This document shows positions 2,550 to 4,744 of a stretch of DNA of 34,438 bases, piece by piece. This DNA is from Deltaproteobacteria bacterium (lineage in GTDB: Bacteria; Myxococcota_A; Polyangia; JAAYKL01). How positions within the stretch are numbered: position 1 is the stretch's first letter; every line of letters begins with the position of its first letter. A model generated the notes under the pieces. That model saw nothing but the letters and a program-made list of their open reading frames with translations, did not search any database and was not told the DNA's origin. Location of the stretch: the NCBI GenBank assembly GCA_030595125.1, contig JAUVDV010000056.1:1-34438 (forward strand), given 5' to 3'. Position numbers and translations under genes: made by a program.

Positions 2550-2563
2550 TGACAGAATTGTCA
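2550..2563. promoter_or_regulatory. Palindrome TGACA-N4-TGTCA, candidate enhancer-binding site
   Basis: A perfect 5+4+5 palindrome lies about 120 bp upstream of the -24 element at 2685. Bacterial enhancer-binding proteins that activate sigma-54 promoters usually bind dyad sites 80-150 bp upstream. The position therefore fits an upstream activating sequence, but the cognate activator is unknown and the site is short. Confidence 0.35.
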
Positions 2564-2684: not shown

Positions 2685-2700
2685 TGGCACCGACATTGCA
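2685..2700 (+). promoter_or_regulatory. Sigma-54 (RpoN) -24/-12 promoter
   Basis: The sequence reads TGGCAC, five bases (CGACA), then TTGCA. This matches the RpoN consensus TGGCAC-N5-TTGCW at every defined base, with the invariant GG and GC dinucleotides correctly spaced. The predicted transcription start is around 2710-2711. It is in a non-coding stretch and faces the candidate small RNA that ends at 2888. Confidence 0.75.
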
Positions 2701-2710
2701 CAGTGTCTTT

Positions 2711-2888
2711 GCATAACGCGGCGCTCTTAGGGTAGGAATTTTGGATTTAAGCCGCCTTACATAGCTTAATTAGTTTTTTACAGATTAAGCAGACCTTGAC
2801 TTAGCTTATTTTTTCTTAGCGATTCGTGAATGCTCCTTCTCTTGTCTGGCTCGTCGCTGCCCGCCCTCAGCGACGAGCCTTTTTTTTT
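2711..2888 (+). ncRNA. Predicted sigma-54-dependent small RNA with anti-Shine-Dalgarno motif
   Basis: A transcript of about 178 nt is bounded by the -24/-12 promoter and an intrinsic terminator, with no convincing reading frame inside. Three stems can be drawn: GCGGC/GCCGC (2718-2722 with 2751-2755), GCTTAAT/ATTAAGC (2764-2770 with 2784-2790), and the 12-bp terminator stem (2848-2859 with 2868-2879). Between the second and third stems is a pyrimidine-rich, probably unpaired segment with CTCCTTCT at 2833-2840. This is the exact complement of the strong ribosome binding site AGAAGGAG, as in trans-acting small RNAs that block translation starts. No known RNA family was recognised. The start is inferred from the promoter; targets are unknown. 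Confidence 0.62.
2848..2888 (+). terminator. Strong Rho-independent terminator of the candidate small RNA
   Basis: GGCTCGTCGCTG at 2848-2859 pairs perfectly with CAGCGACGAGCC at 2868-2879 across an 8-nt loop and is followed by nine T residues (2880-2888). On the other strand the T-run would precede the hairpin, so this is a plus-strand terminator. The preceding annotated gene ends 320 bp upstream, which supports a separate short transcript. Confidence 0.88.
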
Positions 2889-3104: not shown

Positions 3105-3148
3105 ATAAGAGAGCAAACCGTGTGCCATTGCCGGGCGAGCTATCCAAT

Positions 3149-3244: not shown

Positions 3245-4744
3245 ATGACAACTCTTGGTCCAACCGTGATAAACACAACCTCGATGTCTGATTCCGAAAC
3301 GGTTGCCGAGGTACCACCCGAAGAAATCCCGGAGGAAGGACCTTCCTCCCGCAAGGCCATAACCCTGTCGGCTCTGGTTCTGCTGGGGCTTTTCGGTGGG
3401 GTAATCGGGATGTTCGTCGCCATGTCGGGCAAACCGAGTGAGGCGCTCGCGGACGCGTCGGTCGATGCATCGGCTTCACCGTGGCTGGTCCCGGCGACAG
3501 CCGATGCCGGAGCGCCGACCGTAACTCTCCGTCGGGAGCCTGCCGCGCCCGAAAATCTCGTCGAGGAAGCTCCGAGTCCGGCGGACGGACGTATCCTCAA
3601 GGGTGAGGTTAAAAGCGGCGTACCGGTGATCAGAAACCTTACCGGGCTCGGCATTTCCGCGAGCGATGCGCAGCTTCTCATCAATGCCCTGGACGGACTC
3701 TTCGATTTCAGACGCGCCCGCCCCGGGCACAAGTTCGAAATTCGCATGGACAAGGCCACCGGTCGCCCGGTCTCTTTTCGCTACGAAGCCTCAATGACCG
3801 ATGTCTATATCGTCAAAAAACAAAACGATGCCTTTCAGGGGAAGAAGATCCACGTCCCGACCGTCAAGAAGGTCAAGCTGTTCGCGGGCACCATCGCCAG
3901 GTCCCTGTATGCCGCGCTGGCCGATCTGGACGCGCACCCCACGCTGACCGGCAAGATCGCGGATGTGCTTTCCACCCAGGTCAATTTCTACAAGGAACAA
4001 CGCCCCGGAGATACTTTTCGTGTAATGGTGGAAGAAGAGAGCCTCGACGGTCACTTCCTGGGTTACGAGCCGGTTTTGGCCCTGGAGTACAACGGCGTCA
4101 AATCGGGAAAGAAGCGTTTCTTCGGATTTGCGACCTCACCGGGCGCGAACATCATCTATTACGACGAAAAAGGAGTGTCCGTTCCCCGATCCGCCATTCT
4201 GATCCCTCTGCACTACACGCGAATCAGTTCACCATTCGGGCTGCGCTTTCATCCGGTTCTCAAGAGGAAAAAACTGCACAACGGCACTGATTTCGCCGCC
4301 CCCACCGGTACGCCAGTCTGGTCATGCGCCGCCGGCAAGATCATATGCGCGGGCAAACGCGGGGCAAATGGGAATCTGGTCAGCATCGATCACGGGGAGG
4401 GCCTCAGCTCCCACTACGCTCACCTCTCGAGGTTCGGTCCGGGCATCAAGACCGGCGTCGAGATCAAGCAGCGACGGGTCATCGGGTACGTGGGCTCCAC
4501 CGGAAGATCCACCGGTCCGCATCTACACTGGGGTCTGAAGAAGAACGGAAAGTTCCTGGATCCGCTAAAGTACAAGATCCGCCCCGGGCGTCCTGTTGCA
4601 CACAAACACCGCGCCGCGCTCATGGCCATCATCAAGGAACGCAGCAAGAGGCTCGACAAAAAACGCATTCGGCCCGCGAGCGAGCCCCTGGCCAAGGTTC
4701 CCGAAACACACGACGGAGCGCTGGGTGTTGAAGATGATTTTTAG
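3245..4744 (+). CDS. Membrane-anchored LytM/M23 murein endopeptidase (MepM-like)
   Basis: This 499-residue protein has a short cytoplasmic N-terminus, one membrane segment (about residues 37-60), an acidic/proline-rich linker, an OapA/MepM-like middle region (about 125-310), and a C-terminal LytM metallopeptidase domain (about 320-440). The zinc site is complete: HNGTD with H345 and D349, HYAH with H390 and H393, and HLHW with H426 and H428. The family cleaves peptide cross-links in peptidoglycan during cell growth or separation. RISSPFGLRFHP precedes the catalytic domain, as is usual. The ATG at 3245 is chosen because AAAGGAAAG lies just upstream; an internal ATG at 3284 has no such signal. 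The C-terminus is lysine- and arginine-rich. The exact bond cleaved cannot be read from sequence. Confidence 0.88.
   Translation: MTTLGPTVINTTSMSDSETVAEVPPEEIPEEGPSSRKAITLSALVLLGLFGGVIGMFVAMSGKPSEALADASVDASASPWLVPATADAGAPTVTLRREPAAPENLVEEAPSPADGRILKGEVKSGVPVIRNLTGLGISASDAQLLINALDGLFDFRRARPGHKFEIRMDKATGRPVSFRYEASMTDVYIVKKQNDAFQGKKIHVPTVKKVKLFAGTIARSLYAALADLDAHPTLTGKIADVLSTQVNFYKEQRPGDTFRVMVEEESLDGHFLGYEPVLALEYNGVKSGKKRFFGFATSPGANIIYYDEKGVSVPRSAILIPLHYTRISSPFGLRFHPVLKRKKLHNGTDFAAPTGTPVWSCAAGKIICAGKRGANGNLVSIDHGEGLSSHYAHLSRFGPGIKTGVEIKQRRVIGYVGSTGRSTGPHLHWGLKKNGKFLDPLKYKIRPGRPVAHKHRAALMAIIKERSKRLDKKRIRPASEPLAKVPETHDGALGVEDDF

Follow-up and report, generated by a model that had tools for sequence, protein, structure and literature searches.

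What might a short segment of a Myxococcota genome encode when it begins with a sigma-54 box and ends with a run of T residues, and how might its product act in a lineage with no detectable Hfq? The segment lies at positions 2685–2888 of the window, by which is meant the whole stretch of DNA analyzed (34,438 nucleotides), from a host genome of 5.39 Mb that belongs to an order of mostly uncultured Myxococcota. A preliminary description, prepared from the window alone, proposed a self-contained small RNA (sRNA) gene here and staked the proposal on conservation of its promoter, stems and C/U-rich motif in related genomes. Without its relatives, the window would be no more than suggestive of such a gene. 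Comparison among genomes of the GTDB order confirms, at the level of sequence, a free-standing and self-contained sRNA gene under sigma-54 control: the gene is found in all 14 genomes, with the promoter present in every one, the motif exact in 12 of them, and a terminator stem that covaries.

Extent and Distribution of the sRNA Gene

The gene is delimited as follows:

2711 to 2888, forward strand: predicted sRNA of approximately 178 nt, its start placed from the sigma-54 box and its end from the terminator

A DNA search of the family finds the sRNA at approximately 92–93% identity in two congeneric genomes and recovers its 3′ part in most other genera of the order. The promoter and the 3′ module are conserved across all 14 genomes, and R1, a 60-position covariance model for that module, matches each of them with E values of 1e-9 to 1e-18, one copy per genome; genome G004 has in addition a truncated second copy of the gene at a contig end. 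Searches of the 304 remaining genomes in the class did not find the sRNA and yielded a single weak R1 match (G292, E = 0.0056), and in a sample of 379 genomes from the phylum, three of the 14 included, only weak R1 matches were obtained outside the order. The R1 matches outside the order (L094–L098) look like terminators, coding DNA or, in one case, the junction of a tRNA with a terminator, with no sigma-54 box nearby on the same strand. Matches to a genome-wide pattern outside the order (e.g., L062 and L073) lack both terminator stem and box. The preliminary description had recognized no Rfam family, and an Rfam scan of the window and its relatives agrees, returning none above the gathering threshold; a sub-threshold match of the locus to snoR100 (14.1 bits, E = 3.2, other strand) is attributed to chance. 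No tRNA or tmRNA was found in the window. The sRNA is rated as a new RNA family of a known kind, the sigma-54-controlled regulatory RNAs, with Pxr set apart by description.

Sigma-54 Promoter and Upstream Inverted Repeat

Two elements precede the predicted start:

2550 to 2563, forward strand: inverted repeat TGACAGAATTGTCA resembling an activator-binding site, beginning 135 nt before the box
2685 to 2700, forward strand: sigma-54 −24/−12 promoter TGGCACCGACATTGCA, an exact match

The box is the one to which the preliminary description had drawn attention, and its reading as a −24/−12 promoter stands. Every one of the 14 genomes has a TGGYAY-N5-TTGCA box upstream of the sRNA, in the form TGGCAY-N5-TTGCA in 13 and TGGTAT-N5-TTGCA in G004. 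Such sequences are rare, with just 24 sites of the form TGGCAY-N5-TTGCW in the 5.39 Mb host genome versus 8 for a reversed-pattern control. The distance from the end of the box to the pyrimidine motif varies from 93 to 290 nt among the 14 members and is mostly 116–139 nt. Several other sigma-54 boxes in the order (L104, L108, L109, L110, L128, and L133) immediately precede genes that encode secreted lipoprotein-like proteins, of which some have DTDTDT-rich linkers.

The upstream repeat, TGACA-N4-TGTCA, is new to this analysis. It starts 132–136 nt before the box in 12 of the 14 genomes, 122 nt before it in G003 and 140 nt in G008. The best-scoring upstream site has a shuffle p value of at most 0.005 per genome in 12 genomes and is weak in the remaining two (G005 and G006, p = 0.08–0.09). 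When repeat and box are searched together, as GACA-N4-TGTC-N100–130-box, the pattern recovers the sRNA gene in 10 of 14 genomes (0 for the reversed control) and occurs in just three further places in the order. A GACA-N4-TGTC repeat is also seen upstream of a box on contig 414 of G009, contig 2 of G010, and contig 70 of G011. A bound sigma-54 activator would require near-constant spacing of this sort, and the repeat is best described as activator-like, a candidate sigma-54 activator site at a conserved distance. No candidate activator gene (an ORF with GAFTGA and Walker A motifs) was found in the window or in the flanks around its relatives. Most members have another short conserved element (TTTCATAG, TTGCATAG or TTTCACAG; approximately 2528–2535 in the window) some 22 nt before the TGACA repeat, a distance of about two helical turns.

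RNA Structure and the Pyrimidine Motif

Three features of the predicted transcript are defined by pairing or its avoidance:

2718 to 2755, forward strand: 5′ hairpin GCGGC...GCCGC whose loop contains CUUA, in the same place in relatives
2832 to 2844, forward strand: seed-like motif GCUCCUUCUCUUG, complement of the Shine-Dalgarno-like CAAGAGAAGGAGC, conserved and predicted to be mostly unpaired
2848 to 2888, forward strand: intrinsic terminator with a 12-bp stem, loop CCCGCCCT and nine T, from fold and covariation

Three stems had been drawn in the preliminary description. The terminator stem is strongly supported and the 5′ hairpin moderately so; the drawing as a whole is not upheld, the fold of 2711–2889 being only mildly better than that of shuffled sequences (z = −1.94). 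The 5′ hairpin has a stem of at least 5 bp at the same position in 13 of 14 members, with arms that have changed yet stay complementary; shuffle p values for single sequences are mostly not significant. The terminator was correctly given as 12 bp followed by nine T. Its stem occupies 2848–2879 and encloses an 8-nt loop, and both sides have changed in 9 of the 12 pairs, with 99.2% of cells able to pair. The covariation score is 0.542 versus 0.296 for shuffles, none of which reaches 0.542, and slid versions collapse. The loop sequence CGCCCT, to which no attention had been drawn before, is invariant in the 11 aligned members, which is unusual for a plain terminator.

Between these structures lies the 13-mer GCTCCTTCTCTTG, beginning at 2832 and containing the CTCCTTCT previously proposed as an exposed C/U-rich motif. 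The sequence GCTCCTTCTCTT is invariant in the 11 aligned members and exact in 12 of 14, and it constitutes both the longest invariant stretch and the best conserved single-stranded part of the sRNA. Its predicted unpaired probability is 0.66, versus 0.48 for the RNA as a whole, and it is more unpaired than the whole in every member tested, in keeping with the proposed exposure. The motif is degraded in G002 and G008, both of which keep promoter and terminator.

The CUUA Array

A further feature, also absent from the preliminary description, occupies the AU-rich region that separates the 5′ hairpin from the motif:

2726 to 2819, forward strand: CUUA array, six CTTA, recognized by over-representation relative to shuffles

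In 12 related members, whose counts are not fully independent, CTTA was observed 64 times versus 14.1 in shuffles (z = 14.7). The excess is strand-specific, with 78 CTTA versus 5 TAAG in 14 members that are likewise related and not fully independent in their counts. Individually it reaches p < 0.01 in 12 of 14 members; G001 and G010 have just two CTTA each per sRNA. The 260 nt upstream are nearly free of the tetramer (3 in 14 genomes), and CUUGGAU is enriched as well (6 versus 0.2 expected). A periodicity in CUUA spacing, with peaks at 5, 8–9 and 13–14, is suggestive; it is not claimed, the members being related and the number small. The array is an unexplained and unusual part of the new family and possibly binds protein.

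Within 864 kb of sequence searched, dense CTTA clusters are nearly confined to these sRNA genes. The notable exception is a second non-coding locus, on contig 410 of G009, where an exact sigma-54 box, TGGCACGGGTGTTGCT, is followed within 250 nt by nine CTTA. This locus (L225, minus strand) has a pair of 16-bp hairpin arms, CATGGCAAACCGGGTA/TACCCGGTTTGCCATG, downstream of TGGCACGGGTGTTGCT and a palindrome, TGACAGTATGACGTACTGTCA, upstream. Two other loci of G009 (L208 on contig 55 and L216 on contig 121) form long imperfect hairpins whose arms begin CCCCCTGCGCC and whose loops contain three or four CTTA; they have no sigma-54 box ahead and may represent a repeated element.

Proposed Mode of Action

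A search for Hfq gave no match above the family cut-off in the order (0 of 14 genomes) and positive results in the control genomes, a point not raised in the preliminary description. Sequenced myxobacteria have been reported to lack Hfq (PMC5568312). The best explanation of the locus, favored here with slightly better than even confidence, is a trans-acting, Hfq-independent sRNA under sigma-54 control whose exposed GCUCCUUCUCUUG would pair with Shine-Dalgarno regions. A putative sigma-54 activator would bind the TGACA-N4-TGTCA repeat, the center of which lies approximately 154 nt before the predicted start; once bound, the activator would open the promoter, giving rise to an RNA of approximately 178 nt that ends at the intrinsic terminator. 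Pairing of GCUCCUUCUCUUG with purine-rich Shine-Dalgarno regions would block translation of a set of mRNAs, and the conserved C-rich terminator loop CGCCCU is likely to make a second contact. Given that Hfq goes undetected in this lineage, the sRNA is probably stabilized or presented by a different RNA-binding protein, for which the CUUA array would be the best candidate platform.

Judged from complementarity, the anti-Shine-Dalgarno mechanism is plausible. A generic motif of this type would pair with many start sites, and the specificity of the sRNA is left unexplained. The ribosome-binding site of recA has a perfect 12-nt complement, AAGAGAAGGAGC, in three congeneric genomes and in that genus only. 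Most genomes of the order carry two recA genes (in G000 on contig 136, L172, and on contig 46), and the complementary one within the genus is the contig 136 copy (L172); conservation of recA as a target was rejected, since the complement is kept neither in the second recA nor in the other genera. Among 40 GAGAAGGAGC..ATG sites from the order there was no broadly shared target, and those that recur belong to DTDTD-rich lipoprotein paralogs (G007) and to one ortholog pair (G010 and G012). Genome-wide enrichment of AGAGAAGGAGC was not observed (6 sites versus 18 for the reversed control).

The main rival to the anti-Shine-Dalgarno explanation, though an unlikely one in our estimation, is a decoy RNA, in which the CUUA array would bind and sequester an RNA-binding protein under sigma-54 control, much as CrcZ titrates Hfq/Crc and GlmY titrates RapZ, and the C/U-rich motif would be secondary or an aid to stability. 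Such a function would fit the strong, strand-specific excess of CUUA, the near-restriction of dense clusters to these genes in the 864 kb searched, the second sigma-54-preceded CTTA locus in G009, and the persistence of CUUA in G008 despite loss of the anti-Shine-Dalgarno motif. However, GCUCCUUCUCUU, for which a pure decoy would have no use, is much better conserved in sequence than the array, and G001 and G010 have just two CTTA each. We know of no CUUA-binding protein. A wider and speculative proposal, to which we attach a similarly low probability, is that this Hfq-lacking order has a class of sigma-54-driven RNAs built on CUUA arrays with CUUGGAU variants, which would bind and titrate, or be presented by, a putative oligomeric RNA-binding protein. 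The window sRNA, combining array and anti-Shine-Dalgarno seed, would be the conserved core member of this class and the contig 410 locus of G009 a second member.

Genomic Context

The anti-Shine-Dalgarno explanation treats the RNA as trans-acting, and gene order bears on this point. A role in cis for the locus, as leader, attenuator or 3′ UTR element belonging to a neighboring gene, is quite improbable. On the strand of the sRNA gene, an M23 peptidase gene follows it (window position 3245), and an mpl-like gene and an inositol-monophosphatase gene precede it. The mpl-like gene, a Mur ligase by Pfam, is the usual upstream neighbor and is shared in 8 genomes, but in several genomes the sRNA gene is not near mpl. 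The locus also comes with a sigma-54 promoter of its own and ends in a strong terminator. What lies downstream varies in gene identity and strand among genomes, and the sRNA gene is thus considered free-standing rather than a leader; this non-conserved context largely refutes the cis-leader reading.

The opposite strand contains a second exact sigma-54 box, TGGCACACGGTTTGCT (3112–3127, minus strand), which precedes a 64-amino-acid ORF (3081–2887) that has no Pfam match and runs head-on into the sRNA terminator. The minus-strand box and the ORF are kept in G013, the box with a single base change in its spacer-proximal part, and both are absent in G012. The start site of this ORF, CCCTCCGACTGGAGGGCGAGAAAATG, could fold over its own Shine-Dalgarno sequence, and it has a 7-base stretch (GAGGGCG) complementary to the terminator loop of the sRNA.

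Relation to Known Regulatory RNAs

Few sRNAs of the Myxococcota have been studied experimentally, and Pxr is the main one in the literature searched. The lack of Hfq raises the question of how sRNAs in this phylum are stabilized and matched to their targets. An sRNA that is universal in its order, with an activator site at a fixed position, a seed that does not vary and CUUA repeats, could serve as bait for the missing RNA-binding protein, and would also provide an entry to a conserved sigma-54 regulon.

Pxr, known from Myxococcus xanthus and other Cystobacterineae, is the nearest known RNA, compared here by description. Like the window sRNA, it belongs to a Myxococcota lineage without Hfq, has a predicted sigma-54 promoter with an upstream enhancer region, and is rich in hairpins (stem-loops; PMC5568312; PMC5684412). 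Membership of the window sRNA in the Pxr family, whose sigma-54-driven RNA blocks development, is nevertheless highly improbable, as Pxr is 108 nt long versus approximately 178 nt here, no GAFTGA/Walker A activator gene is found in the window or the relatives' flanks, and the sampled rest of the phylum gave no convincing model match. The pxr gene lies beside the activator gene nla19 (pxrR), as do all pxr homologs examined (PMC5568312), whereas no activator gene is near the window sRNA. As far as the description of Pxr extends, the CUUA array and the anti-Shine-Dalgarno motif further set the window sRNA apart.

Other sRNAs resemble it in promoter type or in mode of action. Repeated short motifs of CrcZ titrate Hfq/Crc, and GlmY is a decoy that titrates RapZ. 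CrcZ/CrcY of Pseudomonas and Azotobacter and GlmY/GlmZ of enterobacteria are sigma-54-driven (see PMC6292655; PMC7073468). These differ from the window sRNA in host, motif (CA-rich versus CUUA) and partner protein, and the Rfam scan gave no sequence relation to either pair. C/U-rich anti-Shine-Dalgarno seeds are found in RsaE-type sRNAs of Firmicutes and in RepG of Helicobacter, the latter with a C/U-rich terminator loop. Although their sequences and promoters are unrelated to those described here, the window sRNA likewise exposes a pyrimidine motif between its stems and conserves a C-rich loop in its terminator, and by this likeness would be expected to occlude ribosome-binding sites.
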